A DNA stretch of 64,000 nt from Strigamia acuminata (taxonomy: Eukaryota; Arthropoda; Chilopoda; Geophilomorpha; Linotaeniidae), in assembly GCA_949358305.1 (NCBI GenBank), contig OX442323.1, positions 4,960,001 to 5,024,000 of the forward strand. Reading direction: 5' to 3'. The position numbers and the translations under genes were made by a program. The notes under the pieces are model-generated. The model made no database searches, was not told the origin of the DNA, and saw only the letters and a list, made by a program, of their open reading frames with translations. Positions 33,429-64,000 of this stretch are shown in pieces. The stretch's first letter is position 1, and each line of letters begins with the position of its first letter.

Positions 33429-36400
33429 ATGCCCTCTACTCTTTTCGCTAAGCCTTATGGCCTTTTTGCCATCTGTATTTTTATGGTTTGCCTCATTTAT
33501 TTCTATCAGAAGAGCATAAATATAAATGAAAATTACATGAATACCAGGGCAACGTTCCAGGGAAATGAATTTCTAGTGAGTCAAAATTGCAAATTCTGAT
33601 GCCAAAATCAAAAACTGAAAAATCGTTGACTGGACACGCAAACTACAATAAATACGTGATTTTTAGATATAATAACGGGTACAGTATTTATTCGAATAAG
33701 AGTCGCGGCTCTTTTTCAAAACCGGGTCAAGATTGATGTCATTGAATCTCAATGGATTTTTATGCCACCTGGTAGATAAAATTAAAACAGCTAAACTGAG
33801 GGGAAGTTTTTTTTGTTCATGACTGTACGTTCAATGTTCATTACGTTCAATGTTCATTACGTTAAATACAAAAAAATACCATATTTTTACTGCCTCAGAT
33901 GCGGCTCTTATTCGAATGCAGCTCCAATTCAAGGGCGGCTCTTAATCGAATAAATATGGTATACAGGGTGTTCTAAAAGTCTGTACCCCTCCAAATATTT
34001 CCTGAGCAATTGCATCTAGGCCAATTTTGATGAAGCGATCGTATAGGAAGTTGAGTGAGAGCAATCCAATGACGTCATCAAATTTGACCTTGAAGGTCAT
34101 TTTCAAGCTAAAATCCAATGACATAATCAAATTTGACCTCGAAGGTCATTTTCAGGGTCGTTCACTTGCTAACTTCTAAACCAATCAGGTTAGAGCAAAA
34201 AAGTCAATTACAAAGTTGTAGAGCACCATCAAATTAGTACTATCCAATTTATCTTAGTCATCTTAAGTTAAATGTTTTCTTTTTAAAAAGGAGGCAAATC
34301 AGAAAAAAAATCCGCAAAGTGAAATTTTTTATTCTTGTGATAAAATAATTATTGAGGCATTAAAAAAAGGCAGTTGTTTTTCTTGTTTACTTGCATAATG
34401 ATGCACATTTGAATATGTTTATTAAAGGAATTCAGTATTTTTGCAATAGAAATTTAAGTTTTGTCACAATGGCTGGCTTTATTTCAGCTGATTTGCCTCC
34501 TTTTTAAAAAGAAAACATTTAATTTAAGATGACTAAGATAAATTGGATAGTACTAATTTGATGGTGCTCTACAACTTTGTAATTGACTTTTTTGCTCTAA
34601 CCTGATTGGTTTAGAAGTTAGCAAGTGAATGACCTTGAAAATGACCTTCAAGGTCAAATTTGATGACGTCATTGGATTGCTCTCACCCAACTTACTATAC
34701 GATCACTTCATCAAAATTGGCCTAGATGCAATTGCTCAGGAAATATTTGGAGGGGTACAGACTTTTAAAACACCCTGTATAATGGAAGTATTTGAATAGT
34801 GCCACTTGCGTGCAATAAATCACTTTAGACTTTTGTGTTTTCCTGTGCCAAAAAATAGAATTTAGTGTTTGACTTTGGCATTGGGATAGCGGAGGCATAC
34901 CCTAGTTGATGTCATCTTGTGTATTGTTTAGGTGGATACTCCTGCATGCCAAATCCCAAACCTAGATCCATTTGATTTAGAAGTGCGGAAGTTCTATGAA
35001 TACGCAGGAATATTAAAGTGCCCAAAGGATGGTGCGTTTGCAAGTGCAAATCTGACTCATCTCAACATTGACATGAACTTGTTGAGGGAAGTGTTCTCAA
35101 ATGAGGTTACTTGCGGCTACAAACGAATCTGGAGAGGTGGAAATGACACCGGCGAGATGGACGATTCGTAAGAGATTTCCAACTAGGGTAACCAGGGGAA
35201 AGAAATGAAAAAGCAAGACCCTTGTTTTCTAACCACTAAAGTGAATGCTAAATACAGAATTTAACATTGACGTCAATTTAAATTTACAAAGTGGCTACAT
35301 TCAATGTGGCTACATGAACGTATTATTTTCATAATGCGCTGTGATTGGTTGAGAGATTATACTTCCAGATCTCGCTCGTCACGTAATCTCGGTCTCGGAG
35401 ATCTCGGTTTTTTTTAGTCTCAGGATCTCGGTCTCGGCAAAACGAAATTTCATTATTAAGAGATATAATAAAAACATACAATTCACGTTACGAGTCGTAA
35501 CGTGATTTGTACATTTTTTATTGTTCCTCGTAACGATTAAGATCTTTAACGTTCACTTTACATTCCTTTGTGCTATAAAAGCCGATTGTAAAATTTTTTT
35601 ACCCTAAAAAATGTCGGTTTCTTTTAAAAGCCCGCCCGATAGCGCGTCTTGGTCTCGTACAAGATCTCGTCTCGGGACCTTCTGATCTCGTCTCGGGACC
35701 TTCTGATCTCGTCTCGGAAACCTGAGATTTGGAAACGACCGAGATGCTGGAAGTATATTGAGAGAACCATTGAGATACATTGATGAAAATACTCGGTTCA
35801 GTCTACCGTACTGCCTTGAATAAGGGCCGGGCTTAATTAAGCGCCAGCTCTTGATTAAGCGCCGGCCAACCGCCAGCTGAAAAACCAACAAGCGCCGGCC
35901 CCGAATAAACGCCGGGTTAACCGGAAAATATGTTAAAAACGTATGAATAACGTTAATAAAACGTTAATAAAAATAAAAATTTGTTCAAAAAAATTTATTT
36001 TTAACTTTTTTTTTGGATAGAGGCCTGGCTTGAATAATCGCCTGGTTTTGAATAAGCGCTTGGCGGGCGAGTCGAAAAAAAAATAAACGCCCGGGCCCTT
36101 ATTCAAGGCAGTAGGGTAAGTTGCTAAAAACGAATACGGTTAGGTTTGGGGGGAAAAACTGAACCCAGCACCAATTTGAAGCTTAACGGTAAATGTCCTG
36201 GTCACCCTATGTTAGAGCATATCGACAACCATAAATTTCATATTGCAATTTTCTAGATACGAAACTGACCCCAAATACCACAAAGCTAACGAATCAACTC
36301 CAATCCGTGCTGAGTTTATAAAGGTCGCATGCGCAGTTAACAGAAAACTCGTCTATCGTGATTTTTTCGCATTCGTACAAGTGAAACCCGAAGTAGAGGA

Positions 36401-38953
36401 ACAACGCGATTTGAACTTCGATCGTTGGATGACGGAAACTAAGGAAACAGTAGAGGAAAGACTAAGCGTCACTTTTGTAGGCATAGACTCGGTTTCAAGG
36501 CTCAATATGTTAAGACAGATGCCAAAGACCTTCGGTTATCTTCGGGATGTGATGAACGCGATTGATTTGCAAGGGTATACCAAAGTAGCCGATAATACGT
36601 TCGTCAATGTTGTTCCGATGTTGTCCGGAATGTTCGCCGATGAGTGCTGGAACGAGACTATACAATACGAATATTTGGATGATTTGCATCTTGTGTGGAA
36701 GGATTTTGCTAAGAAGGGATTCCGGACCTTTTTCGCCGAAGATTATTCCGACATCGCCATATTTAATTACGTAAAGGCCGGTTTTTACAAGCAACCAACT
36801 GACTATTACTTAAGACCTTTCACCTTAGCGGTAAACGACAAGTTTAATTTGTCGTTACAATGCTACAACGATCGACCAGAGGCTAACGTTGTTCTGCAAT
36901 GGCTGACTGATTTCCTGATAACGTTTAAAGTATAATTTCTGGGCTGGATTAAGGGGGCAACTTTCAATTATAAAGGGCCCCATGGTGCATGGGACACGTT
37001 GAAAATGCTTTTTTTTAAAGATAAAAATGCTCCTTTTTATACATAATGTATTTTTTCCATTTAAAATGCATTTTTTTCCATTTAAAATGCATTTTTTGCC
37101 GTTTAAAATGCATCTTATTCCATTTAAAATGCATCTTTTTCCATTTCAAATGCATTTTTTCCATTTCAAATGCATTTTTTCCATTTAAAATGCATTTTTT
37201 TCCATTTAAAATGCATTTTTTTTCCATTTCAAATGCATTTTTTGCCGTTTAAAATGCATTTTTTTCCATTTAAAATACATCTTTTTCCATTTCAAATGCA
37301 TTTTTTCCATTTAAAATGCATTTTTTTCCATTTAAAATGCATTTTTTTCCATTTAAAATGCATTTTTTTCCATTTAAAATGCATTTTTTTCCATTTAAAA
37401 TGCATTTTTTTCCATTTAAAATGCATTTTTTTTCATTTAGGATGCATTTTTTTCCATTTAAAATGCTTTTTTTTCCATTTAAAATGCATCTTTTTCCATT
37501 TAAAATGCATTTTTTCCATTTAAAATTAATTTTTTCCATTTAAAATGCATTTTTTCTCATTTAAAATGCATTTTATCCATTTAAAATGCATTTTTTCCAT
37601 TTAAAATGCATTATTTCACTAGAAAGCACTTTTTTTTTTTGAAAGATGCAATTTATTTTTAGCTCAAAATGAACCTCTTTTTCATAAAAATGCGTGTGAA
37701 AATGTGTGGAAATGCCCTGTTTGGCTTGAAAATGCATTATTATGCATGAAAAAGCAATTTTTCAATCTAAAATGATTATCTTTCCCGTAAAAATTCATTG
37801 TTTTGCGTGAAAAAGCAATTTTTCAGTTAAAAATGATTTTCTTTCCCATAAAAATGCATGTGATTGCATTTATTCTTGCTTGAAAAAATAGTGACAACGT
37901 TGTTTCTGAATATCTACGGATTCTGATTTAGGGGACCCTTCTTGCAGCCTTAATCCGGCCCCTTAGAAATCTATTAAAAATCGTAAAAATTAATTGTTAT
38001 CATTTAATTTAAAAAAAAAATAATAATAATAATTTTATTTTCAGAATAAACCAACTTTTGCATTGCTGTTTAACACTCGGCTCACTCACGAGTATTTAAA
38101 CGACGCGGGATACGCGGACGAACCGTATTACAAATTCCTACGAAATTACCACCAATCGAATTTCAACAACAACTCCGTCCTCATCTTCTTCAGCGACCAC
38201 GGCATCCGTTTCGGACCAATCCGAAATACCTACATAGGCAAAATCGAAGAACGGATGCCATTTTTCTTCCTAGTATTTCCCCCCTGGTTTCGATCCAAGT
38301 ACCCGAAAATATGGCAAAACGTTCGCATCAACCAACACAGACTCACCACACCTTTCGACATTTACGCCACGTTGAAAGACATCCTCGATTTCACGGGAAA
38401 CGCGAAGAAAGCCACTCTGAGCGACCGCGGCATCAGTTTGTTTTCCGAAATTCCTCGAGAGAGGTCGTGCGAACACGCCGCCATCTTGCCCCATTGGTGC
38501 ACCTGCGAGAAGCGAATCAAAGTCGACGTAAAGAATTTGCGCGTGCGAAAAGCCGCTAAGAAACTCGTGGATACCGTCAACGAGAAAATAGCGGGCGAAA
38601 AGGGTTGCGCGAAGCTGGAGTTGGATGAAATTGTGGATGGTTACGTCAGCGGTTTGGACGAATCGGTCCTGAAGTACAGAGAGAGCTTAAACTCTGTGAT
38701 AAATCGTACGGTATTTTACGGTTACCACGTTAGTACCGTTTACAATTACTTGATTACGGTTAAAGTGAAGCCTAGTGGCGCTCTCTTCGAAGGGACGGTA
38801 CAGTTTTTTGAATCTAGGCGAGTTTTCGTCGTAGTTAGCGAAATTAGTCGCATAAATGCATACGGGCATCAAGCAGACTGTATCCAAAGTGCGGAATTGA
38901 AGAAATTTTGTTATTGTAAACCCAAACTATTGCTGTTATCGGCCTTGTTGTAA
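33429..38953 (+). CDS. DUF229 alkaline-phosphatase-like membrane protein, gene 3 (4 exons)
   Basis: Exons 33429-33575, 34932-35167, 36257-36929 and 38045-38953 join in phase to 654 residues. The exon 3/4 boundary of copies 1 and 2 is absent, so those two exons are one here. An N-terminal membrane helix lies at about residues 11-26. Motifs: GIDSVSRLNML, DNTFVN (TFPN in the other copies), FFSDHGIRFG and HWCTC. The end is longer and hydrophobic (KLLLLSALL). The acceptor just before the start implies a leader intron. AATAAA lies at 38963. It is an older paralogue of copies 1 and 2. SRD5A3 begins 221 bp downstream on the same strand. Confidence 0.88.
33680..33961. mobile_element. MITE with tatttattcga ends in intron 1 of gene 3
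   Basis: The left end includes tatttattcgaataagagtc and the right end includes gcggctcttaatcgaataaa, inverted relative to each other. Related words return at about 60460-60855. Its right end abuts the next element. Confidence 0.5.
33962..34779. mobile_element. Foldback MITE with about 300-bp arms, TA target
   Basis: Starts TACAGGGTGTTCTAAAAGTC and ends with its inverted form. The arms pair through at least 300 bases on each side around a short centre. TA flanks both ends, as in Tc1/mariner insertions. A plus-strand transcript would form a very long hairpin inside gene 3 intron 1. Confidence 0.8.
35358..35757. mobile_element. Element rich in gatctcg/tctcgg words in intron 2 of gene 3
   Basis: The ends tatacttccagatctcg and inverted cgagatgctggaagtata enclose about 400 bp full of gatctcg and tcgtctcggg repeats. 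It is non-coding. Confidence 0.45.
35804..36118. mobile_element. MITE, second copy of the family at 263
   Basis: Starts TACCGTACTGCCTTGAA and ends TTCAAGGCAGTAGGGTA, with the same internal aagcgcc words as 263-596. It lies in intron 2 of gene 3. Confidence 0.7.
37046..37625. repeat. 20-21-bp minisatellite in intron 3 of gene 3
   Basis: About 28 units of ttttttccatttaaaatgca with small variants. The frames inside read as repetitive peptide on both strands and are not genes. Confidence 0.93.
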
Positions 38954-39174: not shown

Positions 39175-41129
39175 ATGTTTTCAGACTTCTATTTATTATC
39201 CTTTGTGAGTTTTAAACCGGAATTTTAAGTTTATATATTTTTAAAAGCTTTTTTTTTGGGAATTTTAGGTCGATCCGTTGTGGGCGATATGGATAAGCAT
39301 TACGGGGTTTGTGACATTCGTCGGTTTGTGGATCGTGTTGGTGCCCGAGTGGGTCCCGGATTACATCCTCGGTGGAGTGTTGTACGGCAAATTAGCACCG
39401 CCAGAATCAAACAAAATATTGAGATTAATTCAATTACCTAAACGGTAGAATGAAATTTTGTTATTCGATGCGGTTTTTTAATGTTTTTTATCTTTTCATC
39501 GCAGGTGGTTTACACATTTCTACGCTTTTGCCACGTTTTTCAATGCGATTCATGTGGCGATCGTTTTTCGTTTGTATATTATGCAAACACCGGTGCCTGC
39601 ACTAGTATTAACTCTGCTTAATTTAGTGGCTCCTTCCAGAGAAGCTAGAAGTAAAAATATTTGGGATAAATTGGAATTATGTGCATTTTTGTTTTGTTTT
39701 TAGTTGATACTTTTGGGGCATTGCTGGCGATGACGTTGATGTTTGTTCAGACGGCACGACGGTTGTACGAGTGCATGTTTATAAGTGTTTATTCGAATGC
39801 GACTATTAATGTTCTGCAGTATTTTCTTGGGTTTTTGTTTTATTTTTGTGTTACGGTGACTTTGGTGAGTGAGGCGCCTGGATTCTCGCTGTCTGATTCG
39901 AGATGTGAGTACTTGATTTGGGTGTTTGGTTTTTGGTAAATTGATTTTGTATTTATAATAATGTTTGTTTTTAGGGTTTGTGTATCAACTGCCACCGTTT
40001 AGTGTCAAGTGGAATCATTTGGTCGGATTTGCACTTTTTTTATTTGCGAGTTTGATGCATTATCAATCTCATGCTATTTTGGGAAATCTAAGGAAAAATG
40101 ATAAAGGTATTAGAGAATGCGTTAAAAAAAATTTTTTATGAAAATGAGTCAAATTTTGATAAAAATGAGTCGAATTTTGTTGAAAATGAGTCGAATTTTG
40201 ATGAAAGTGACTCGAATTTAGATGAAAATGACTCGAATTTAGATGAAAATGACTCGAATTTAGATGAAAATGACTCGAATTTAGATGAAAATGAACTCAA
40301 AATTAAGTGAAATTCACAAATTTAAGACGAAATTGACATAAAATTATACGAAATTTACAAATTTAAGACGAAAATAACTCGAAATTAGACGAAATTCACA
40401 AATTTAATACGAAAATAACTCGAAATTAGATGAAATTCACAAATTTAGGACGAAAATAACTCGAAATTTGACGAAATTCACTCATTTAAGATGAAAATAA
40501 CTCGAAATTAGATGAAAATTAGATGAAATTCACAAATTTAAGACGAAAATAACTCGAAATTAGATGAAATTCACAAATTTAGGACGAAAATAACTCGAAA
40601 TTTGACGAAATTCACAAATTTAAGACGAAAATAACTCGAAATTAGACGAAATTCACAAATTTAAGACGAAAATAACTCGAAATTTGACGAAATTCACAAA
40701 TTCTATTCGAAATTGAGTGCAAAATTTATCAATTTAATCGAAAATAAACAAAAAATTTATCAATTTAATCGAAAATAAACAAAAAATTTATCCAGTTACA
40801 CAATAAAAGCACAAATTTCTTTACTAAACCCATTTATTAACGGAACTAATTTATTCATTCCTGAATTAGGTGATGTAGTTACGCAAGCACATTTAGTCCC
40901 AGTCGGTGTTTGGTTCGAATACATCTCCTGTCCACACTACCTAGCCGAAATTCTAATCTACATAGCTATCTTCATCATCCTGGGCTTCAAACATTATGGC
41001 TGGTCTCTCATTTTATGTTGGGTCATTTCGAACCAAGTGTTTAACGGTCTGATGACCCACAAGTGGTATAAGCAAAAGCACAAATCGTATCCGGCCAAAC
41101 GAAAAGCAATTTTTCCATTTGTGTTATGA
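39175..41129 (+). CDS. SRD5A3: Polyprenol reductase / steroid 5-alpha-reductase 3 homologue (6 exons)
   Basis: Exons 39175-39204, 39269-39444, 39505-39650, 39704-39904, 39975-40106 and 40870-41129 join in phase to 314 residues, close to the human protein (318). Family marks: PKRWFTHFYAF, ARRLYECMFISVYSN, HAILGNLRKN, a conserved FEYISCPHYLAE block, and a C-terminus ending RKAIFPFVL. Several hydrophobic helices fit an ER membrane enzyme. The family reduces polyprenol to dolichol for N-glycosylation. The 10-codon first exon is the least certain part. Intron 5 is swollen by tandem repeats. The stop is 73 bp from that of the convergent OST subunit gene. Confidence 0.93.
40140..40310. repeat. 21-bp minisatellite, intron 5 of SRD5A3
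   Basis: Units of gaaaatgactcgaatttagat. The period is a multiple of three, so one frame stays open, but it lies beyond the exon 5 donor and is not coding. Confidence 0.85.
40311..40720. repeat. About 41-bp minisatellite, intron 5 of SRD5A3
   Basis: Repeats of aagacgaaaataactcgaaa followed by ttagacgaaattcacaaattt, continuing on from the 21-bp array and probably derived from it. Confidence 0.85.
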
Positions 41130-44238: not shown

Positions 44239-47200
44239 TTATTTATGTGAAATATATTTGAGTAAAGGTTTAGCGAGAATTGAAAGTTGTCGAATGAAAG
44301 CCAGAGCAGACAAACCCAAATTGAGGCCAAGAATGTTACCGAAGTCGCACATAAGTGAAATGAACCCGTACGCACTCTCCTCTACAATATATTCCACTTT
44401 GTTGTTGAAAAAGAAATAAATAACAATGGTGATCATATCGACCGGGCTCGGCAGCAAGTACATGCGCGTAGTGTAGAAGGTTTCGTCGCACGGCAAGGGG
44501 CAGCCGCAGTCCTCTTGTATGTTCGTGTTCATGAAAATCTCCATGTAATCGTGTCTGGCGCGTTTGGCTTCGGCTGCGGAGTTGCAAGGTGCCGCATCGG
44601 TTTCGTTCATGAAGGGTAAACTGTGATACAATTTTAGTGAATTTAAATTGTAATTTAAATTGTGGGTTTTACCTGCAATTGACATTATCCTGGATTTTTC
44701 TTGATAAGCAAGTTTGTTTGCATTTGTAGAATTTTTCCGCCGGAGCTGTACATATCTCGGCTTTTCGAGAAAGACGTTTAATCTGAAGTGCATGAGTGAG
44801 TTATTGATTAATTGAGTCAATTAAGAAGATTAATTAACGGTAATCTAATTTTTTTTTTGAAAAATGAGGCCAGAGGCCCATCTAGGAGGCAGGGGGGGCC
44901 TATTTTTCACATGAAAATGTATTATATCTCCAGAAAATGGAGTTGTTTCGCATGAAAATGTAATTATTTTAACTAAAAATATATTTATTTCTCATAAAAA
45001 TGCATTATTTCTTTAGAAAATGCATTATTTCTTCAGAAAATGCATTGTTTCTTCAGAAAATGCATTGTTTTGCATAAAAATGCAATTTTCTCTGCCTGCA
45101 AATGCATTTTTCTGCCTACAAATGCATTTATCTGCCTGCAAATGCATTTTTCTGCCTGCAAATGCATTTTTCTGCCTGCAAATGCATTTTTCTGCCTGCA
45201 AATGCATTTTTCTGCTTGCAAATGCATTTTTCTGCCTGCAAATGCATTTCTTTTGCTTGAATATTCTTGCAGAAACAGATTCTGGTTTGGGAAGAGGGCT
45301 GTACGGATCGTAAAGTTGATTCTGATTTATTAATGTAATGAAGTGCATTGACAGTCACTATACTTACCTTAGATACTTCGAATATCACACTGTCAACGTG
45401 TGAATAAGGAATTAGTCGTCTTGAAGTGTAATCAATGAAGTGGTCTATTGGTAATTGTATGTACACCTGCAACAATTTTGAAGTGTTATGTAGATCTGTG
45501 TTAACCTTTACAAGTGTAGTACAAGTGTTTACATTGGAATTGTTGAGCCACTTAGGGAAATTGAATGCTGTCAGAAGAAAAGTAAACATTCCTGAATATT
45601 TCGTTGGAGCTGGTGTGGAAAACAATGTTAATTCCATTTAGTTTTTAATTAATGTTTATTTTTCGAATTATTTACCAAACGTGAATTTCATGCATTTTCC
45701 CAACGGAGTATACGTCGTGCTGATGGTTGTGTCCTCGCGTACAACGAATGGCATAGTTTTCTAAAATGTAAAGGGAGGGAATTATTTACTAACTTTTGTT
45801 ATGTTAATTCTCTTGATGTGGTTGACACAATTTGTGTATTATGTTATTATAGGGACAAGACTGCAGCATATTACGACCGACAATTGCCTAATGTTCATGA
45901 ACCGAGGATAACTTGGACACGTATCCACATGTTCAGTGCGTTTTGCCACCGATTGTGCCACATATACTCTGGCCATGTGTAAGTTTGGCCTAACTCCGAG
46001 CCTCATTACTCACTCTGTGCCACAGTCTCTATACTGTGCTCTGTGCTGCCACCAGGGAAAATAGTTCAGAGTTTAGTGCTTGCTTCTGGTGTTTGGATCT
46101 ATTTTCTTGTATCACTACACCAGAGAAACGGCCCGGAGTTAGGCCAAACTTACACATGGCCAGAGTATAGTATACAGGGTGAACCAAAAGTCTGGATCCC
46201 TACTAAATATTTCTGAAAGTGGTAACAATGCATCTAATTCAATGATGGCAAAGTATTAAAGTTGGGTGGGGCAATCTTTTGGTGACCCGAAATTTGACCT
46301 TGGGACGTTCCTTTAAGGTCATTTGAAAATTATCTCGGAAACCGTTAGAGATAGACAGAAATTTCCAATTGTAAACTTGTAGACCATCATTTGTTTAGTC
46401 TAAAATTGACTAATTCTCAAATCTTTTGTACTAAAAGATTTTAAGAAAATCGCAATTTCGGGTCACCAAATTTCGGGTCACCAAAAGATTGCCCCACCCA
46501 ACTTTAATACTTTGCCATCATTGAATTAGATGCATTGTTACCACTTTCAGAAATATTTAGTAGTGATCCAGACTTTTGGTTCACCCTGTATAGCCGCATT
46601 GTATTCTGGGATGACAACAGGTAACAAACATGCTTAGTTGGCAAGCAATGCATGACACGTGATTGCTGTCATCCAATCAGCGCACAGAACAACGAATCAA
46701 TAGGAAATAACACACGGGTACCTGTCCATGTTATCCTTGGTTCATTGTTCTATACATACTAACCAAAAAGAAGATCATATTAAAATCAATTTCTTTTTCG
46801 TATGTATCGTCCCAGAGTTTTTCAAGGGATTTTGTTTTGGGATCATCAATCATGTCCAAAATATCAATTGGTCTGCTTCCTTTTGCGATTTTCATATATT
46901 TATAATACTTGGATGCAATCTTAGGACTCAAACCACAATGTATGGAATTTGGGTATTGTACGTCATCGACGTCTTCAACTTTGACGACTATTGAGATTGG
47001 TTCTTCCAAATAGAACTGGATTTTGATGATACTCATGTATATTGACAGACAAGTGCAACCTGCCAAAACAAGACGGTGTAACCATTTTGAAGTTCCATGG
47101 ACTTCGATTTTCTTAGGATCTTCAGAGATGTCTTTTTTCTGATAGGATGCTAGAACATGGGCTACCTTTTTCTTCATTGGATCAAGTTTTTGTTGTTTGG

Positions 47201-50200
47201 AAACGATTGTGCATTTCTTTCTGAGTAGAATTGCAACTACGGTGAAAATGTTGGTTATCGAAAGCACCGACAGTCCCAAGAAAAGGCCGAGGTTTCCTCC
47301 CACATCGGTGAGAAGACTGATTGCATCGTACGACCAGATCTGTTGCACTGTTCGGACATAGTGACTGTGTACTCCGAAGTCTGCTATAATGTCAGTCGAC
47401 AGGAGGTTTGTGACATCGAAGTATGAATTCAGAACTCTCTGATCACACATTCTTGGGCAGTTACAATCTTTTTTCGGGCTTGTTGTCAGTATCATTTTCA
47501 GTGTCTGGTCATATATTTGTTGTGTGTATATGGAGGTGTCACAAATATTCAAAGGAACATGTTCCCGTGGAAGAAACGGAAACCTATTTGATAGTGGAAG
47601 TGAAAGAGTGAAAAATTATTTATTTAGATTGGTTTAAAAAAATATAAACGACTATTATTTTGTCTAATTTTGTCTTGCTGTTTTAGCATTTAAGGTATCG
47701 GAATTGTCAATAGAGTTTGTGGGATGCATTTTTCCCTTACAGTTAAAGACTATACGGTATAAAAATAGTGTAAAGGAAAAATGATAAATTAAGTTTTTGC
47801 GGGTTGCACTTTTCCCTTATCACTACACTATTTCAGCCAATTACTGACAGTTAGTAATTTTGGGCCTAAAAATTCAATTTGGGGACGTAAATGTGCAAAT
47901 TTCTGCATAAATTTCCATTATTATGCCTATAAAGTATGGTTTTGGGCCTAAAATTCAATTTTGGGCCTCACTTATCATTCAATCTACGTACCTACGCTGT
48001 GATGTGTTTGATCGGGACAACAAAATAATCGCCATTTGCAATGGGCGGAGCTAACAATATAGTGTTCTCAATTCTGATTGGCTGCACTATATTTTAATTT
48101 AGTGTTGAAAACGATACACTAAAGATTTTTCCCTTACGATATGGCACTAAAATAGTGTAACGGGGCACAAAATAAGGGAAAAATGCATCCCGCAAACTCT
48201 CTATTGGCTGTGGGTCTTAATTTGCATTTTTTAGATTGAGTGAGCAGATATTATTCATACCTGCAGGTGAAGTTGCTCAAAAATTTTCTGTAAAAACATT
48301 TATGAATGCAATCAACATACGCCTCTGTTGTGATGCATGTGTCCTTCTTAGTAGCAAGAAAGCGGTACTGAAAAACGTCAAAAAATTAATTTTTGTATGA
48401 GGCCTGGTCTTTTCTTATTTTTCTGCCAATGCTCTTTTATTGCTTGCAATTTTAGCACGGTGTGATTGCTTGGCCACCCAAGGTTGACCTGCAACACTGA
48501 CATAGATTACCCAATGGTCCCGAGGTCAACCCTTTGTTGCAGAGTTGTACGACCTAGTAAGTGGAGGGTGGGAGCTGAGTGGTGTAGGGAGAGAAGAGCA
48601 TTGGGTCTCAACCAAGACGAATATGTCTGAGAAGTTACTGTCAGCAGTCGTGCTCTGCATTATTATTGCTCACCTCCCTATTCACCACTGTGATGGTAAG
48701 GGGTGAGATGTCGGATTCACCACAGCCTCCATGAGCGGTTGAATGGGCCGTAAATAAGTACGGTAGAATCGTACCAACCATTTCATACATAGGGTTAACC
48801 TTCCTGGGTGTGACAGGTTGGTTGCTGGTGTGGCGTGCCTTTAAGGTACTGCCAGTATGTGGGTAGACGGGAGACTGCGATCCCTAGACAACGGATTAAT
48901 AAAGGCCAACCATTTAACCCTCTGGAGTGCCTGTCTTATCATTTTACATGAGCATGCGTCGCACCTCGTCTCCAAGCTGCCATGGATAAGATCATGCCAT
49001 CACAACGGATTACAGAAATTACAAAGGAACTGCTTTAACTTTGCCATCTGTGATTCTATCGTCTTATGGTGGAACTAACCTCTTTAAAATCAAGGTGTTT
49101 CACAAGATGCGTTCCTGAGAACAAAATCATGGTGTATCGGAAATCAACCGGTGCCGCCAGTGTGATCTAATGTTAAATGCATGGATATAAACTGATCGAT
49201 TGTGTATAGAGTTGTTCATTTACCATTACTGTTCCTGTTTGGCACAATGACGATTTCTGAAGGTTTGCGACTATTGATCCATAAACATTTTTTCCTCGAA
49301 GTGGTTTATCTGTGGAATTAAAAACGTAAATTTAAATATGTAGAAGATCTACCATGTCCCAGCAGGAGGTGATTGAGTATTCAAAGACAAAAATGAGCCG
49401 ATTTTTTTTAGAAAAATGCCTGGGCCAGTAGAGGGTATTCACATAGTCTTTAGACAATTTTAAAAAATTTCTACACGCTAACATTAGGTGGTAATATGAA
49501 GTGAAAAAGAGAGAGCGAAGAGAGTTGTCCGTGGAAGACTCCTCCCTATTCACCACTGAGATGCGCCAGTGGTGTGATATTGGATCCACCACAGCCTCCA
49601 TGAGCGGCTGCATGAGCCGCTCATCCAAGGGGATTACCTCCCTGTATGTGGTCGGATGCTGTGTGGCGTGCTGATCTAAAGACTTTGTGAACATCCTTTA
49701 TTAATTCTCAAATTTGCCCGTGTTACAGTTTAAGATGCAGACACCTTACCAAGTTTTATCACATGACATGCACCCCAAACAGATCTTTCGACTCTTTCGG
49801 TCATGGTTGGAAAATCTATATTCTTCTGGAAACAAAAAAAAAACAATACAAGTAGTTTATCTTATTTTACTAGTTTGTTTTGTTCTTGCTACAGTAGTAT
49901 GAATGCAAAAATGTACTAACCTCAGCATTATCACTTTTGTAAATTCGCTTGGGTTTGAATTCCAGCTGTTTAATTGTAGGAGAATATTTGGTTAAGTTCC
50001 ATATTTGTGCCAGATCCGTTCCTTGTTCCATGACTTCGTAAGCTGGATTTATGCAGTACCAAGCGTTCAGGTCTGGAATACCCGCTCCTCCTGTTTTGGT
50101 TTTCCAGTACTCCTTGACGTGATCATTTTCTAAGGTACATATTTTGATAGGGGGGAATTCGATGCTTTCGATTTCCCCGTATAGGATGTTGACGGATGTT

Positions 50201-50421
50201 GGTTCGCTGAGAAAGAAAAACAACCTCTCTTGCGATTGGTAGCAGCAAGTGATGACGGAGCACAGGATGATGAAGAACCATACAATGCGCAAAGTGATTG
50301 TGTGATTGTCGTCGAGTAACGCTTGAAATTCATCAACTCCGATGTCGACTTTCTCGGTTTGAAGCATTTGTTTTTTCACCAAATTTCGAATACGGGGTCG
50401 CAATTTGACAATTTCGTCCAT
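44239..50421 (-). CDS. D1: fused double DEG/ENaC channel subunit (11 exons)
   Basis: Exons in order: 49921-50421, 49750-49825, 49224-49309, 49080-49166, 48261-48367, 46764-47583, 45676-45760, 45533-45609, 45368-45466, 44673-44782, 44239-44620; all phases agree, giving 809 residues. Unit 1: first helix in exon 1 (RIVWFFIILCSVITCC), Cys-rich ectodomain, second helix with GLFLGLS in exon 6. The same exon continues with a cytoplasmic linker, an HG gating motif (EVHGTSKW) and the first helix of unit 2 (HRLVLAGCTCLSIYM). Unit 2 ends with a pore helix reading LGLNLGLS. The protein is thus predicted to cross the membrane four times and supply two of the three subunits of a trimeric sodium channel. 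Unit 1 has HT where HG is usual. Confidence 0.85.
45010..45255. repeat. 20-bp minisatellite in a D1 intron
   Basis: About ten units of aaatgcatttttctgcctgc, preceded by looser tgcattatttcttcagaaaa units. The array in the same D2 intron (about 55285-55465) is shorter. Confidence 0.9.
45965..46167. mobile_element. MITE 1 in D1 intron 6
   Basis: The ends TACTCTGGCCATGTGTAAGT and its inverted copy pair over at least 34 bp, with TA on both sides. The matching intron of D2 (near 56105) has neither this nor the next element. Confidence 0.75.
46173..46590. mobile_element. MITE 2 in D1 intron 6, mariner-type ends
   Basis: Starts TACAGGGTGAACCAAAAGTC and ends with the inverted form. The arms pair for more than 100 bp. 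TA flanks both ends. It lies five bases from the previous element. The outer 9 bases match those of the foldback element at 33962. Confidence 0.8.
48540..49690. repeat. Interspersed repeat copies in D1 introns 2 and 4
   Basis: Blocks at about 48685-48860 and 49540-49690 share ccaccacagcctccatgagc and neighbouring words. D2 has the same pair at about 57715-57905 and 58985-59135. They lie in introns and look like remnants of a transposon I cannot classify. Confidence 0.45.
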
Positions 50422-54612: not shown

Positions 54613-57600
54613 TTATTTACGTGAAATATATTTGAGTAAAGGTTTAGCGAGAATTGAAAGTTGCCGAATGAAAGCCAGAGCAGACAAACCCAAATTGAGG
54701 CCAAGAATGTTACCGAAGTCGCACATAAGTGAAATGAACCCGTACGCACTCACCTCTACAATATATTCCACTTTGTTGTTGAAAAAGAAATAAATAACAA
54801 TCGTGATTATATCGACCGGGGTCGGCAGCAAATACATGCGCGTAGTGTAGAAGGTTTCATCGCACGGCAAGGGGCAGCCGCAGTCTTCTTGTAGGTTCGT
54901 CCTCATGAAAATCTCCATGTAATCGTGTCTGGCGCGTTTGGCTTCGGCTGTGGAATTGCAAGGTTCCGCATCGGTTTCGTTCATGAAGGGTAAACTGTGA
55001 TGCAATTTTAGTGAATTTAAATTGTAATTTAAATTGTGGGTTTTACCTGCAATTGACATTATCCTGGATTTTTCTCGATAAGCAAGTTTGTTTGCATTTG
55101 TGGAATTTTTCTGCCGGAGCTGTACATATCTCAGCTTTTCGAGAAAGACGTTTAATCTGAAGTGCATGAGTGAGTTATTGATGAATTGAGTCAATTAAGA
55201 AGATTAATTAACGGTAATCTAATTTTTTTTTTGAAAAATGAGGCCAGAGGCCCATCTAGGAGGCAGGGGGACTTATTTTTCACATGAAAATGTATTACAT
55301 CTCCAGAAAATGGAGTTGTTTCGCATGAAAATGTAATTATTCTAGCTAAAAATGTATTTATTTCGCATAAAAATGCATTATTTCTTCATAAAATGCATTG
55401 TTTTGCATAAAATGCAAATTTTTCTCTGTCTGCAAATGCATTTTTCTGCCTGCAAATGCATTTTTCTGCTTGAATATTCTTGGCAGAAACAGATTCTGTT
55501 TTGGGAAGAGGGCTGTACGGATCATAAAGTTGATTCTGATTTATTAATTTAATGAAGTGTATTGACAGTCACTATATCGGTACTTACCTTAGATACTTCG
55601 AATATCACATTGTCAATGTGTGAATAAGGAATTAGTCGTCTTGAAGTGTAATCAATGAAGTGGTCTATTGGTAATTGTATGTACACCTGGAACAATTTTG
55701 AAGTGTTATGTAGATGTGTGGCAACCTTTACAAGTGTAGTACAAGTGTTTACATTGGAATTGTTGAGCCACTTAGGGAAATTGAATGCTGTCAGAAGAAA
55801 AGTAAACATTCCTGCATATATCGTTGGAGCTGGTGTGGAAAACAATGTTAATTCCATTTAATTTTTAATTAATTTTTATTTTTTGAATTATTTACCAAAC
55901 GTGAATTTCATGCATTTTCCCAACGGAGTATACGCCGTGCTGATGTTTGTGTCCTCTCGTACAACAAATGGCAAGGTTTGCTAAAATATAAAGGGAGGGA
56001 CGAGACTGGAGTATATTACGACCGACAATTGCCTAATGTTCATAAACCAAGAATAACTTGGACACGTATCCACATGTTCAGTGCATTTTGCCACCGATTG
56101 TGCTACATAGTATATAGCCGCGCTGTATTCTGGGATGACAACAGGTAACAAACATGCTTAGTTGGCAAGCAATGCATGACACGTGATTGCTGTCATCCAT
56201 TCAGCGCAAAGAACAACGAATCAATAGGAAATAACACACGGGTACCTGTCCATGTTATCCTTGGTTTATTGTTCTATACATACTAACCAACGCGAAGATC
56301 AAATTAAAATCAATTTCTTTTTCGTATGTATCGTCCCAGAGTTTTTCAAGGGATTTTGTTTTGGGATCATCAATCATGTCCAAAATATCAATTGGTCTGC
56401 TTCCTCTTGCGATTTTCATGTATCTATAATACTTGGATGCAATCTTAGGACTCAAACCACAATGTATGGAATTTGGGTATTGTACGTCATCGACGTCTTC
56501 AACTTCGACGACTATTGAGATTGGTTCTTTCAAATAGAACTGGATTTTGATGATACTCATGTATATTGACAGACAAGTGCAACCTGCCAAAACAAGACGG
56601 TGTAACCATTTTGAAGTTCCACTGGCTCCGATTTTCTTAGGATCTTCAGAGATGTCTTTTTTCTGGTAGGATGCTAGAACCTGGGCTACCTTTGTCTTCA
56701 TTGGATCAAGTTTTTGTTGTTTGGAAACGATTGTGCATTTCTTTTTGAGAAGAATTGCGACTATGCTGAAAATGTTGGTTATCGAAAGCACCGATAGTCC
56801 TAAGAAAAGGCCGAGGTTACCTCCCACATCGGTGAGAAGACTGATTGCATCGTATGACCAGATCTGTTGCACTGTTCGGACATAGTGACTATGTACTCCG
56901 AAGTCTGCTATAATATCAGTCGTCGGGAGGTTTGTGACGTCGAAGTATGAATTCAGAACTCTCTGATCACACGTTCTTGGACATTTACAATCTTTTTTTG
57001 GGCTTGTTGTCAGTATCATTTTCAGTGTCTGGTCATATATTTGTTGCGTGTTTATGGAGGTGTCACAAATATTTAAAGGGACATGTTCCCGTGGAAGAAA
57101 CGGAAACCTATTTGATGGTAGAAGTGAAAGAGTGGAAAATTATATATTTAGATTGGTTAAAAAAATATAAACGACTATTATTCTGTCTAATTTTGTCTTG
57201 CTGTTTTAGCATTTAAGGTATCGGAATTGTCATTGGATGTGGGTCTTAATTTGCATTTTTTAGATTGAGTGATCAGATATTTTTCATACCTGCAGGTGAA
57301 GTTGCTGCTCAAAAATTTTCTGTATAAACATTTTTCAATGCAATCAATATACGCCTGTGTTGTTGTGCATGTGTCCTTCTTAGTAGCAAGAAAGCGGTAC
57401 TGAAAAACGTCAAAAATTTTAATTTTTGTATGAGACCTGATCTTTTCTTATTTTTCTGCCAATGTTGTTTTATTGCTTGCAATTTTAGCACGGTGTGATT
57501 GCTTGGCCACCCAAGGTTGACCTGCATCACTGACATAGATTACCCAATGGTCCCGAGGTCAACCCTTTCTTGCGGAGTGGTACGACCTAGTAAGTGGAAG

Positions 57601-60006
57601 ATGGGAGCTGAGTGGTGTAGGGAGAGAAGAGCATTGGGTCTCAACCGAGACGGACATGTCTGAGAAGTTACTGTGAAGTCAGCAAGAGCAGTCGTGCTCT
57701 GTATTATTTCTGCTCATTTCTCTATTCACCACTGTGATGGTAAGGGATGAGATGTCGGATCCACCACAGCCTCCATGAGCGGTTGCATGGGCCGTAAGTA
57801 AGTACGGCAGAATAGTACCAGCCACTTCATACATGGGGTTAACCTCCCTGGGTGTGACGGGTCACTTGATGTCGTGGCGTACCTTTGCGGTACAGCCAGC
57901 ACATAGATAAACGGTAGATCCCGACCCCTAGACAACGGATTAATTAAGGCCAACCATCCAACAATCTGGAGTCCCTGTCTTATCATTTTACGTGAGCATT
58001 CGTCACACGTCATGGTAACTCGTCTCCAAGTTGCCATGGATAAGATCATGCCATCACAACAGATTACAGAAATTACAAAGGAACTGCTTTAACTTTTCTA
58101 TCTGTATAGCCCAAGGGGTCGGCAACCTTTTGAGACGGAAGAGCCAAAATTTCCCAGTTGTTCAAGAGCCACTACAATATTAAATTACGTCCCACACAGC
58201 CGCATCTTGACATCGAAAGAGCCACCTACAGCTCGTGAGCCGCAGGTTGCCGACCCCTGGTATAGCCTGTGATTCTATCGTCTTATGGTGGAACTAACCT
58301 CTTTAAAATCAAGGTGTTTCACAAGATGCGTTTTTGAGAACAAAATCATGGTGTATCGGAAATCAACCGGTGCTGACAGTGTGATCTAATGTTAAACGCA
58401 TGAATATAAACTGATTGATTGTGTATAGAGTTGTTCATTTACCATTACTGTTCCTGTTTGGCACAATGACGATTTCTGAATGTTTGCAACTAATGATCCA
58501 TAAACATTTTTTCCTTGAAGTGGTTTATCTTTGGAATTAAAAATGTAAGTAATACATATACTCAAAACCACTCCAAGGTTGATCTATTTCACTGGTGTAG
58601 TGGTACAAAAAAGTAGTCCAAAACACCAGAATTGTAATCGAACTCCAGACATTGTGCCCGATTACCAACATTGTCAAAGGTGAGGCTTTGACACAGAACT
58701 ACTTTTCCACGTGGTAGAACACAATACAAAGTTAGCCGTAAACAGGCTAAATAGATCAACCTTGGAGTGGTTTTGAGTATAGAAGATCTATCATGTGCCA
58801 GCAGGAGCTGATTGAGCATACGAAGACAAAAATAGGCCGTCTTTTTTTTTTTTTTTTATAAAAATGCCTGGGCCAGTAGAGGGTATTCACTTACTCTTTA
58901 GACAATTTAAAAAAATTTCTACACGCTAACATTAGGTGGTAATACGGAGTGAAGAAGAGAGAGCGAAGAGAGTTGTTCGTGGAAGACTCCTCCCTATTTA
59001 CCACTGAGATGCTCAGTGGTGAGATGTTGGATCCACCACAGCTTCCATGAGCGGCTGCATGGGCCGAGGAAAGTACGCTAGAATATCGACCACGTCACAC
59101 AAGGGGATTACCTCCCTGTTTGTGGTCGGTTGCTGTGTGGTGTGCTGGTCTAAAGACTTTGTGAACACCCTGTATTACTTTTTAATTTTGCCAAGTTTTA
59201 CCTTACCAAGTTTTATCACATGACATGCACCCCAAACAGATCTTTCGACACTTTCGGTCATGGTTGGAAAATCTATATTCTTCTGGAAACAAAAAAAAAC
59301 AATACAAGTAGTTTGGTTGAAATAAATCTTTTTAGTGGGAAAATTATTTTTTTTTGGCTGAGTTAAATTAGTGGGACAAAAAAATTACGTTAGTGGAAAA
59401 GTCAGTTAGTGGGAGATTTAGTTTTTTTTTAGTGGGAAACCAAAGAAATTTAGTGGGTTTATAATTTATGCCCCTACAGTAGTGTGAATGCAAAAATGTA
59501 CTAACCTCAGCATTATCACTTTTGTAAATTCGCTTGGGTTTGAATTCCAGCTTTTTAACTATAGGAGAATATTTAGTTAAGTTCCATATTTGTGCCAGAT
59601 CCGTTCCTTGTTCCATGACTTCGTAAGCTGGATTCATACAGTACCAAGCGTTGATGTCTGGAATACCCGCTCCTCCTGTTTTGGTTTTCCAGTAATCCAT
59701 GACGTAATCATTTTCTAAGGTACATATTTTGATAGGGGGGAATTCGATGCTTTCGATTTTTCCGTACAGGATGTTGACGGATGTCGGTTCGCTGAGGAAG
59801 AAAAACAACCTCTCTTGCGATTGGTAGCAGCAAGTGACGACGGAGCACAGGATGATGAAGAACCATACAATGCGCAAAGTGGTTGTGTGATTGTCGTCGA
59901 GTAACGCTTGAAATTCATCAACTCCGATGTCGACTTTCTCGGTTTGAAGCATTTGTTTTTTCACGAGGTTTCGAATTCGGGGTCGCAATTTGAGAATTTC
60001 ATCCAT
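54613..60006 (-). CDS. D2: fused double DEG/ENaC channel subunit (11 exons)
   Basis: Exons in order: 59506-60006, 59207-59282, 58443-58528, 58299-58385, 57290-57399, 56288-57107, 55896-55980, 55753-55829, 55588-55686, 55047-55156, 54613-54994; all phases agree, giving 810 residues. Same structure as D1, with one extra codon in exon 5. Unit 1 pore helix GLFLGLS and unit 2 LGLNLGLS are intact. In the unit 2 gating motif the usual His-Gly is Ser-Gly (IGASGTSKW; D1 has EVHGTSKW). In this family such a change would be expected to affect gating. The acceptor before exon 3 is purine-rich (ccaaag). Intron 1 has a private insert of ttagtggga repeats (about 59300-59477). Confidence 0.85.
58112..58259. 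mobile_element. hAT-type MITE in D2 intron 4
   Basis: The ends CAAGGGGTCGGCAACC and inverted GGTTGCCGACCCCTG are flanked by a perfect 8-bp duplication, GTATAGCC (58104-58111, 58260-58267). Eight-base duplications and such ends are typical of hAT elements. The D1 intron lacks it. Confidence 0.85.
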
Positions 60007-60863: not shown

Positions 60864-63126
60864 TTATTTTAATGCTTTAGCATTGAAACGTTTGAGAGAT
60901 GAGTTAGCAAGCATCGAGGTTTGGCGAATGAATGCCAGTAAGGACAAACCCAAATTTAAGCCCAGAATGTTTCCAAAGTCACACATGAGTGAAACCATCC
61001 CATAAGCAAATTGCTCTACAATATTTTCGACTTTTTTGTTGAAAAAGTAATAATTGAGAATTGTTAAAAACTTCATCTGGTTTCGAATTGTGTAGACATG
61101 CGTTGAGTAGAAGTCTTCTTCACATGGCACGGGACAGGAACACTCTAGTGGAATGTTGGTATCCATCACTATTTTCATGTAAACACTTCTTGCTAGTTTA
61201 GCATCGGCTGTCGATTTGCATGGTTCTGCATCGGTTTCATTCATAAAAGGTAAACTGTAATGGATTATAACAATTTGCACGGAAACAGTGATGCGAATTG
61301 AAGTTAATAATTACCTGCAGTTGACTTGATCTTGTATTTTGCTTGTAAAACAGGTTTTTTTGCATTGGTAGAATTGTTCTGCTGGTTCAGTGCAGTTCTT
61401 TCCTTTTCGAGCAATGTGTTTAATCTGCAATACGGAGTTGCAAGAAAGTGTTTAATAGGACGTAAACAATTTGCGAGATTTTATGAATGGCCCCATTGAC
61501 CACACATACTTTAGTCATTTCGAATACCAATGCGTTAATGTTTTCATTTGGAATTGATCTTCGGGATGAATAATCAATGAAGTGGTCTAACGGTAATTGC
61601 AGGTACACCTAATACAGTGCAGCATATGCAATTATCAAGTTTTACTACACAACTAATAATTAGGTAGAGTACATTCGAACTGTTAGCCGCTTTAGAAAGA
61701 ATGTAAGCTGTCATAAGAGTAGTAAACATTCCAGCGAATTGTGTTGGATCTAGTATACATATACAATATAAAGAGATAAATGGGATATTGAGTGGATTTT
61801 TATTTTGAAACTTTGTAGTTACGAAATACGAATTTGTGGCATTTCCCCACGGGAGTCATTGTCGTGCTCAAATCGGCGTCGCGGTGAGCAAGAAACGGCA
61901 TGTGTTTCTAAGTTTACGAGTAAATTTTAAAGAATTGTGCAGTAGGATTTGTAAATAGGTTACTCACCACTGACCACATGCCTGCGAAATCAAATTCGTA
62001 GGCGTACGTTTCACAAATTCCGGATTAAAACTGCAGAATATGGCATTTGGATACGGTATGATTTCAACTTCATCAACTAATATGACTACACGGACTGGTT
62101 CTGCCAAATACAATTGGATTTTTGTGATCATCATGTAAATGGACAGACATGTGCAGCAGGTCATGATAAACCGGCGCAACCATTTAGCAGATCCGTGCAA
62201 TTGGGGTCCGAGAGGAATTTCGGTGGATCCGACGAGTTTGGCCACTTTTTTCTTCAGGGGATCGAGGCGCAACGGTTTGGGTTTTTCTTTCGTTTTATTT
62301 TTCAGCGATATTACAAGTATGCTGAGAATGTTGGTTATCGAAAGCAAGGAAAGTCCTAAGAAAAGACCGAGGTTTCCGCCGATGTCGGTGAGAAGATTGA
62401 TTGTATCGTAAGCCCAGATTTCGTGCACTGTTCTGATGATATTAGTGGCCACGCCAAAGACCGCTATCATGCCGTCTACCTCGAGTTCCGCCACCTCCAA
62501 GTAGGCGTTCAACACGCGGTGAGTGCATGTTCTTGCGCAGTTGCAGTTTTTTCTTTGACTCACGGTCATTACCAATTTCAGAGTGTTGTCGAACATTTCT
62601 TGTATGTTGATTGAGGTGTTACACACATCCAAAGGAACGTCTTCCTTTGGCAGAAATGGAAACCTAAAATATTTGAAAACAGTTTGTTTTTGTGAGTTTC
62701 ATTTGATATTGGCTAAATGTTGCAATGTAGAAAGATGTGCACCAAAGTAAAAGTAAATGGACGTTAGATTTATTTTAGTTGATACCTGCAGTCGAATTTC
62801 TTCATGAATATTCGGTACAAACATTTGTTGACACATTCCAGGTATTCATTTTTCGTGATGCATGGCGTTTCTCTTGTGGCAAGAAACTCGTACTGTTTGG
62901 GGTCCATAAGCATTGAAACTTGTGTTTTGCTGTACAGTATGTGGATATACTGAAAATCAACTGGTTCCGGAATTGATATCTGTAGTTGCAATGCAAGTTG
63001 AATATTCATTCAAGATTAGGAAGAAAAAGTCATTTACCAATACTGGTGATTTATCGTTGCACAATCTTAGTGGGAGCACGTGTGCTTGTAACGTTCCAAA
63101 AACATATTTGTTTTTAAGCCGCTTTG
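60864..63126 (-). pseudogene. D3: fused double DEG/ENaC gene, 5' part missing, frameshift in bridging exon
   Basis: Visible exons in order: 63038-63126, 62786-62979, about 61964-62663, 61823-61907, 61673-61749, 61510-61608, 61315-61424, 60864-61254. Exons 4 and 5 of D1 are fused here. The bridging exon holds GLFLGLS of unit 1, a linker, LHGSAKW and the first helix of unit 2, as in D1. After IFCSFNPEF the frame no longer matches: the D1-like end (TYAYEFDFAGMWSV, then donor GTGAGT, phase 0) is in another frame. About 30 codons plus a non-multiple of three are missing near 62000-62030. All later exons are intact and in phase. The first two exons are not found in the window and may lie beyond 64000. 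Either this is a recent pseudogene or there is a base error at the break. Confidence 0.7.
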
Positions 63127-63185
63127 CTAGTAAGTTTTAAATAATAATAATGATAATTGACCACTATCAATAACCACGAATAAAA

Positions 63186-63598
63186 TTAGACCTAACAAAA
63201 CAACAATCGTTCTCCCGACCAATCCCGACGCGCGTAACAAACAGATTTTGACGTCTCATTGGTTCTGACCAGGAAGAAATATCAAGTTATGTTAAATGCT
63301 GAAGTTGTGTACCACAGTATAGAGAAGAGACAGTAGGGCAATGTGTGTACTGTGTACATGACAGGTCACTCGACCAATCAGTGTCGAGTTGACCAATACA
63401 GAACAAATGTGTATTGTCCAATCCAACAAAATTCCTCTCACTATGCATAATTTTCGATTCAAAAATTTTGTTCTCCTGATACTGGCGCCACCCGTTGCGG
63501 CTTTACGAACCATTGAATCAGGCATCAAATGTCAAATGTGGTTTGTTACGCGGGTCGAGATTGGTCTGCAGAACGATTGTTGTTTTGTTAAGCCTAAT
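63186..63598. mobile_element. MITE upstream of the first visible D3 exon
   Basis: The left arm ctaacaaaacaacaatcgtt returns inverted at the right (aacgattgttgttttgttaa). The arms pair for about 60 bp with small differences. It has no coding content. Confidence 0.6.
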
Positions 63599-64000
63599 CT
63601 CATTCGTGGTTATTATTTTCTATCGGTAAATTCTCGTATAAAATACACTTCGCGCTTGAGTAATTATCCGGATTAGGTCAGCACTCATCTTCTTGTCAGG
63701 GGAGAGGATTTGTGCTGACCTAATTATCCTAACAATTACACGTTGCGCTCTGGTACATGACCTCTGAGAATAATTATATTAAAAAATCCAGAAAACAATT
63801 AGTAAATAATACTAGTATATGACCTCTGAGTATAATAATAATAACAAAAATATTAAAAAATCACGAAAACAATTAGTAAAAAAAATATATATTTTTTTTT
63901 TGGTCAAGAGTGCGAGCTCAAATTTTAATAGTCAAGGGGATTAAGAAGCAGGATGTTAGGCAAAACTTAATATTATTAATATTAATATTAATATTATTTT
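63599..64000. other. AT-rich window end, no gene recognised
   Basis: Contains a short hairpin (taggtcagcac ... gtgctgaccta, about 63675-63722), two tatgacctctgag copies and a terminal (aatatt) microsatellite. Confidence 0.5.

Follow-up and report, generated by a model that had tools for sequence, protein, structure and literature searches.

Channels of the DEG/ENaC family are trimers of separate subunits, each with two transmembrane helices (TM1 and TM2) and with both of its ends on the cytosolic side; a His-Gly motif precedes TM1, TM2 carries the selectivity filter motif G/S-x-S, and the stoichiometry of these channels has long been debated using engineered concatemers. The solved channels closest to the locus presented here come from a centipede: PDPNaC1, reported to be a homotrimer (421 residues) encoded by nine exons and devoid of a knuckle (EMBO Rep 2025, PMC12714832), and broad-range thermal receptor 1 or BRTNaC1 (PDB 8ymr and 8ymw), reported from the same centipede. 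We analysed a stretch of 64,000 nucleotides from the centipede Strigamia acuminata (assembly GCA_949358305.1, contig OX442323.1, positions 4,960,001 to 5,024,000; hereafter the window, with positions counted from its first letter). Two intact paralogues there, D1 and D2, each hold two full DEG/ENaC units within a single open frame, an arrangement supported at the gene level, and judging from their sequence it is likely that these intact genes encode a double DEG/ENaC subunit of natural origin, joined head to tail.

The two units meet in exon 6 of D1 (46764..47583, minus strand), which is exactly 820 nucleotides long, contains no stop in its frame, and is preceded by AG (TCAAATAG) and followed by GT (GTTAGTAT). 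It encodes, in this order, the C-terminal part of unit 1 with its TM2 (GLFLGLS), a linker, and TM1 with the first extracellular part of unit 2. A first-pass annotation, made from the letters alone, had described this segment as a single uninterrupted exon joining the pore helix of one unit to the first helix of another, and the open frame and the AG/GT borders bear this out. GLFLGLS corresponds to residues 385-391 of the product, and unit 2 TM1 (hydropathy windows 454-476) follows 62 residues further on, so that the earlier figure of about 70 residues is roughly right for the distance between the helices and too high for the hydrophilic linker itself, which comprises 50 residues (407-456). The same arrangement had been proposed for 56288-57107 in D2, where we find it again within a whole and intact gene.

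The window reads as animal DNA, with intron-split genes and a GC content of 39%. D1 has eleven exons on the minus strand, from a start codon at 50421 to a stop ending at 44239, and its ten introns are all GT-AG with every phase fitting, giving a product of 809 residues. D2 has the same eleven exons, with ten GT-AG introns whose phases all fit and a product of 810 residues; matched exons of the two genes are 91 to 99% identical in DNA. When D1 was compared with the whole window by tblastn, matches with an expectation value (E) below 1 were confined to D1, D2 and a third locus, D3, the remainder being at chance level (E from 3.3 to 9.6 for matches outside these loci, and E of 6.2 and 6.7 for antisense matches within D1 and D2). 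The exons of the two genes are as follows.

49921..50421, minus strand: D1 exon 1, start codon, N-terminus, unit 1 TM1 and first extracellular part (enclosing open reading frame matches ASC)
49750..49825, minus strand: D1 exon 2 (GT-AG, phase 0 to 1)
49224..49309, minus strand: D1 exon 3 (GT-AG, phase 1 to 0)
49080..49166, minus strand: D1 exon 4 (GT-AG, phase 0 to 0)
48261..48367, minus strand: D1 exon 5, encoding the cysteine-rich region of unit 1 (GT-AG, phase 0 to 2)
46764..47583, minus strand: D1 exon 6, bridging (open frame, AG/GT borders, hydropathy)
45676..45760, minus strand: D1 exon 7, equivalent in unit 2 to exon 2 (phase 0 to 1)
45533..45609, minus strand: D1 exon 8, equivalent to exon 3 (phase 1 to 0)
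45368..45466, minus strand: D1 exon 9, equivalent to exon 4 (phase 0 to 0)
44673..44782, minus strand: D1 exon 10, equivalent to exon 5 (phase 0 to 2)
44239..44620, minus strand: D1 exon 11, unit 2 TM2 (LNLGLS) and stop (enclosing open reading frame matches ASC)
54613..60006, minus strand: D2, whole gene (810 residues, spliced model)
60006-59506, 59282-59207, 58528-58443, 58385-58299, 57399-57290, minus strand: D2 exons 1-5
57107-56288, minus strand: D2 exon 6, bridging
55980-55896, 55829-55753, 55686-55588, 55156-55047, 54994-54613, minus strand: D2 exons 7-11

Both halves of the product belong to the family. Two ASC domains had been expected, and each D1 unit, searched apart, matches Pfam PF00858 (ASC) above the cut-off of 23.6 bits, unit 1 with 82.9 and unit 2 with 67.3 bits. 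The alignment of unit 1 with unit 2 scores 176, compared to a mean of 37.6 (sd 5.4, maximum 57) over 300 shuffles; the two units are about 20% identical, no closer to each other than either is to the centipede channels (19-22%). Across D1 unit 1, D1 unit 2, PDPNaC1 and BRTNaC1, 26 columns are invariant, including eight cysteines. Hydropathy windows at residues 39-64, 373-413, 454-476 and 768-799 of D1 fit two membrane helices per unit, and we interpret the further windows at 736-755 and, marginally, at 219-238 as ectodomain strands. The filter residues GLS are kept in both units of D1, D2 and D3. Before TM1, unit 2 shows HG in D1 and D3 and SG in D2; unit 1 shows no HG in D1 or D2, and BRTNaC1 has PG there. 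The units are ordinary DEG/ENaC units and it is the architecture of the chain that is unusual: the gene structure of D1 contradicts the separate-subunit part of the trimer definition, and a double subunit suits the topology of the family because both subunit ends are inside.

Among solved structures the best match of the whole D1 product is PDPNaC1 (residues 37-408, E 2.3e-17), followed by BRTNaC1 (8.1e-17), both centipede channels ranking ahead of ASIC and FaNaC. Unit 2 alone finds BRTNaC1 with E 2.4e-14 (8ymw, the best BRTNaC1 chain and a D217N/E218Q variant) and 2.6e-13 (8ymr), and PDPNaC1 with 4.2e-5. PDPNaC1 differs from D1 in having one unit only, which shares about 21% of its residues with unit 1 and 22% with unit 2; BRTNaC1 is likewise a compact DEG/ENaC chain (431 residues), but again has one unit only, with an identity of 19-21% to those of D1.

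The two-pore-domain K+ channels and the two-pore channels are precedents for pore-forming units that became joined naturally in a single chain; these belong to families of tetrameric symmetry, in which doubles fit without remainder, whereas DEG/ENaC channels are threefold. The DEG/ENaC chains compared here are laboratory products, namely the ASIC2a/3 trimers, which are engineered concatemers (PMC10329638), and 2ASICFP, a head-to-tail double of human ASIC1a which is reported to give typical ASIC currents in oocytes, with a pH50 of 6.35 (PMC4529235). The constructs resemble D1 in carrying head-to-tail subunits in one chain with their cytosolic ends joined, but they combine the same subunit (2ASICFP, with a linker of 8 residues) or paralogous vertebrate subunits, while D1 is a gene of natural origin whose units share about 20% of their residues and are separated by a linker of 50 residues. 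2ASICFP leaves the stoichiometry unsettled, because PMC4529235 itself argues for tetramers at the surface. No report of a natural DEG/ENaC double was found among the titles and abstract beginnings listed by searches of the open-licence PubMed Central literature, and word look-ups in the main text of a few DEG/ENaC papers with phylogenies gave unrelated passages only; automated annotations may contain ASC-ASC architectures.

The linker of D1 is basic (14 K/R vs 5 D/E among its 50 residues), which fits the cytosolic side of the membrane, where both ends of a DEG/ENaC subunit are located. Its basic pairs and runs are abundant, as would suit a double chain that is made and then cut in the linker into two ordinary subunits at a fixed 1:1 ratio. 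We regard such processing as quite improbable: a cytosolic linker is beyond the reach of furin-type proteases, as is well established, and engineered ASIC1a concatemers keep full-length bands, their lower bands being read by the authors as cleavage or incomplete synthesis (PMC4529235).

The third copy, D3, lies upstream of D2 and is more diverged, with an overall residue identity of 54% to D1. Its parts are these.

60864..62979, minus strand: D3, partial gene, upstream of D2
62979-62786, minus strand: D3 fused exon 4/5
62663 to about 61964, minus strand: D3 bridging exon, 3' end uncertain
61907-61823, 61749-61673, 61608-61510, 61424-61315, 61254-60864, minus strand: D3 later five exons

The intron between exons 4 and 5, present in D1 and D2, is absent from D3. 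The first-pass annotation had listed 61964-62663 as a third instance of the bridging exon, and the order of pore helix, linker and TM1 is indeed found there; the 3' border, on the other hand, is doubtful. Splice sites were scored with a matrix built from 25 introns modelled here, excluding the doubtful intron after D3 exon 6 (leave-one-out donors ranged from -2.5 to 11.5), and these scores are only rough because the matrix is small and the D1 and D2 sites are near copies. An exon ending at 61964 has an in-frame TGA as its last codon and a donor score of -1.3, compared to 9.8 for the D1 and D2 exon; donors at 61968 (6.6) and 61975 (6.5) shift the frame into exon 7, and one at 62015 keeps the frame and scores 0.4. 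The in-frame TGA and the frame-shifting of the better donors rule out D3 as a clean third example, and we take it as a diverged copy with the same bridging order, possibly damaged. The remaining upstream part of the window, about 1 kb, yielded no match to exons 1-3 of D3. Just upstream of exon 4/5 there is an inverted repeat (63169-63614) with arms of 91 nucleotides that are 84% complementary, which may be an insert resembling a miniature inverted-repeat transposable element in a D3 intron.

D3 also gives a measure of age and constraint. Between D1 and D3, the synonymous divergence (dS) of unit 1 is 1.15 with a ratio of nonsynonymous to synonymous divergence (dN/dS) of 0.28 (bootstrap 0.16-0.42; 185 codons, exons 4-6 only), and that of unit 2 is 1.06 with a dN/dS of 0.30 (bootstrap 0.20-0.40; 327 codons, the TGA codon of D3 omitted). 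A dS of about 1.1 together with a dN/dS of about 0.3 in both units indicates that the fusion is old and that both units are constrained; between D1 and D2 the dN/dS of unit 1 is 0.32 (0.19-0.52). In windows of 30 residues compared between D1 and D3, unit 1 TM2 is 73% identical (a value equalled or exceeded by 71 of 518 windows) and unit 2 TM2 87% (by 5 of 518), and since both pore helices are better kept than average we take both as being used.

That the fusion is not an assembly join, as had been argued from its recurrence, is upheld, since D3 retains the bridging exon at a dS of about 1.1 from D1. The exon does contain splice-like donors, the best of which reach scores of 6.0 (D1) and 7.4 (D2) where the true donor has 9.8, and splice-like acceptors (best 6.2 and 8.0, respectively), which would be compatible with an unseen intron. 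Its presence in three copies, one of them this divergent, and a linker in D3 that is six codons (18 nucleotides) shorter than that of D1 with the frame kept make either an assembly artefact or a hidden intron highly improbable.

Several points weigh against a functional double subunit. In the protein collection searched, none of 5378 candidates for D1 and none of 4007 for a four-row alignment reached an E of 0.001; this collection seems to be without animal DEG/ENaC proteins, and its zero matches therefore say nothing on rarity. D3 seems to be a damaged copy, and the dN/dS of unit 2 between D1 and D2 is 0.51, with a bootstrap range (0.26-1.02) reaching above 1. This ratio, the doubtful end of the D3 bridging exon and the failure to find exons 1-3 of D3 in the window would suit a decaying array in which the fusion is a relic devoid of function. 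Such a relic is very improbable, however, given that the frames of D1 (809 codons) and D2 (810 codons) are open throughout, that none of their splice sites is damaged, and that both units show the low D1-D3 ratios given above.

The linker supplies the other unfavourable points. Its window has an identity of 43% in the comparison of D1 with D3, a value that 437 of 518 windows equal or exceed, and is a less conserved part of the chain, and its dN/dS is 0.63 between D1 and D3, with a wide range (0.20-1.52; 35 codons), and 1.27 (0.12-2.27) between D1 and D2, the latter from six changes only; the linker may be loosely kept, as fits a tether. We also considered the linker as a copy of the N-terminus of unit 1, in which the former N-terminus of unit 2 would still be visible, KLRP and KLDP being alike by eye, and rejected this after 5000 shuffles (p 0.49 for D1, 0.27 for D2 and 0.90 for D3). 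Finally, D1 and D2 have an in-frame ATG (LDPM) at codon 136 of the bridging exon, upstream of unit 2 TM1, so that an internal start is possible there. The exon could then be shared by two overlapping transcription units yielding single subunits, with unit 2 starting at the linker ATG from a promoter within or ahead of the exon, and unit 1 ending through an early 3' end or an alternative exon. We consider this improbable: no stop is present between unit 1 TM2 and unit 2 TM1 in D1, D2 or D3, AATAAA and ATTAAA sites are absent from the bridging exon of D1 and D2 (D3 has one such site), and D3 has CTG at the corresponding codon with no in-frame ATG anywhere from unit 1 TM2 to unit 2 TM1.

A single double polypeptide is, as far as the sequence allows us to say, probably the product of the fused gene. 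The chain would cross the membrane with four helices and carry two ectodomains, with a short basic linker on the cytosolic side; it would be made and kept whole, and both of its units would line cation pores of the trimer type. A sensory role, by analogy with the centipede relatives, would be a guess. It had been stated that a trimer built from doubles needs a spare unit, which holds for one pore; three double chains, by contrast, hold six units, enough for two trimers with no unit to spare. The favoured and most likely arrangement would be pores that mix units 1 and 2 from neighbouring chains, although we hold any one mode of assembly tentatively at best. Alternatives are two chains forming one pore plus an idle unit, or one chain with a single-unit partner. 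An obligate double-barrelled channel, in which three fused chains form two linked trimeric pores joined by the 50-residue cytosolic tether, appears unlikely. In such a channel units 1 and 2 would occupy separate pores or be mixed 2:1 and 1:2, and two pores with different gating would be locked together at a fixed ratio. More generally, a double subunit could fix the composition of a heteromer genetically, and a natural double in a threefold family is a case in which evolution has tested how channels with an odd number of subunits accommodate chains that carry an even number.

The intron phases of the two units are the same (0,1,0,0,2 in each), and by eye four of the five introns are equally far from an anchor residue in both; the first differs by three residues (20 vs 23 to the cysteine of GxC). 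With equal phases in both units, exon 6 has the appearance of a terminal exon, with TM2, continued by an initial exon, with TM1. The double gene may have arisen from tandem copies of a compact gene of the centipede channel type, with loss of the intervening DNA and merger of the last exon of one copy with the initial exon of its neighbour; tandem duplication combined with such a merger would then be a route to a multi-unit channel chain. The low identity of the units implies either a very old fusion or the joining of two long-separated copies. In a tree of eight unit sequences PDPNaC1 and BRTNaC1 (the latter as the 8ymw variant) fall apart from the window units with a support of 90.9/91, a tree that, having no outgroup, does not decide if unit 1 and unit 2 are each other's closest relatives.

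The remainder of the window holds several other features. A long terminal repeat (LTR) retrotransposon on the minus strand (8010-20879) has end repeats that are 100% and 99% identical over stretches of 300 and 127 nucleotides, 12.05 kb apart, and is probably a very recent insertion. It contains an open reading frame (16824-19979) with a weak zinc-knuckle match below the cut-off, a Ty3/gypsy-like pol (12721-16863) and, after pol, an extra open reading frame of 933 codons (8877-11678) with no Pfam match at E 0.01. On the plus strand there is an array of DUF229 (sulfatase-like) gene pieces (6426-7049, 21174-22073, 29928-30521, 31361-32284, 36216-36935 and 38033-38953), assigned by Pfam for the pieces starting at 6426, 21174 and 36216 and by eye from the translations for the others. 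The pieces at 6426 and 29928, and likewise those at 21174 and 31361, look nearly identical, which suggests a recent segmental duplication. Between the sulfatase-like and channel clusters, an open reading frame at 40779-41129 (plus strand) matches Steroid_dh (3-oxo-5-alpha-steroid 4-dehydrogenase). Long simple tandem repeats at 30700-31320, 37128-37523 and 45000-45260 produce repetitive open frames of the types FWSKKSIFGPKNQ, FHLKCIF and ACKCIFLPANAF.

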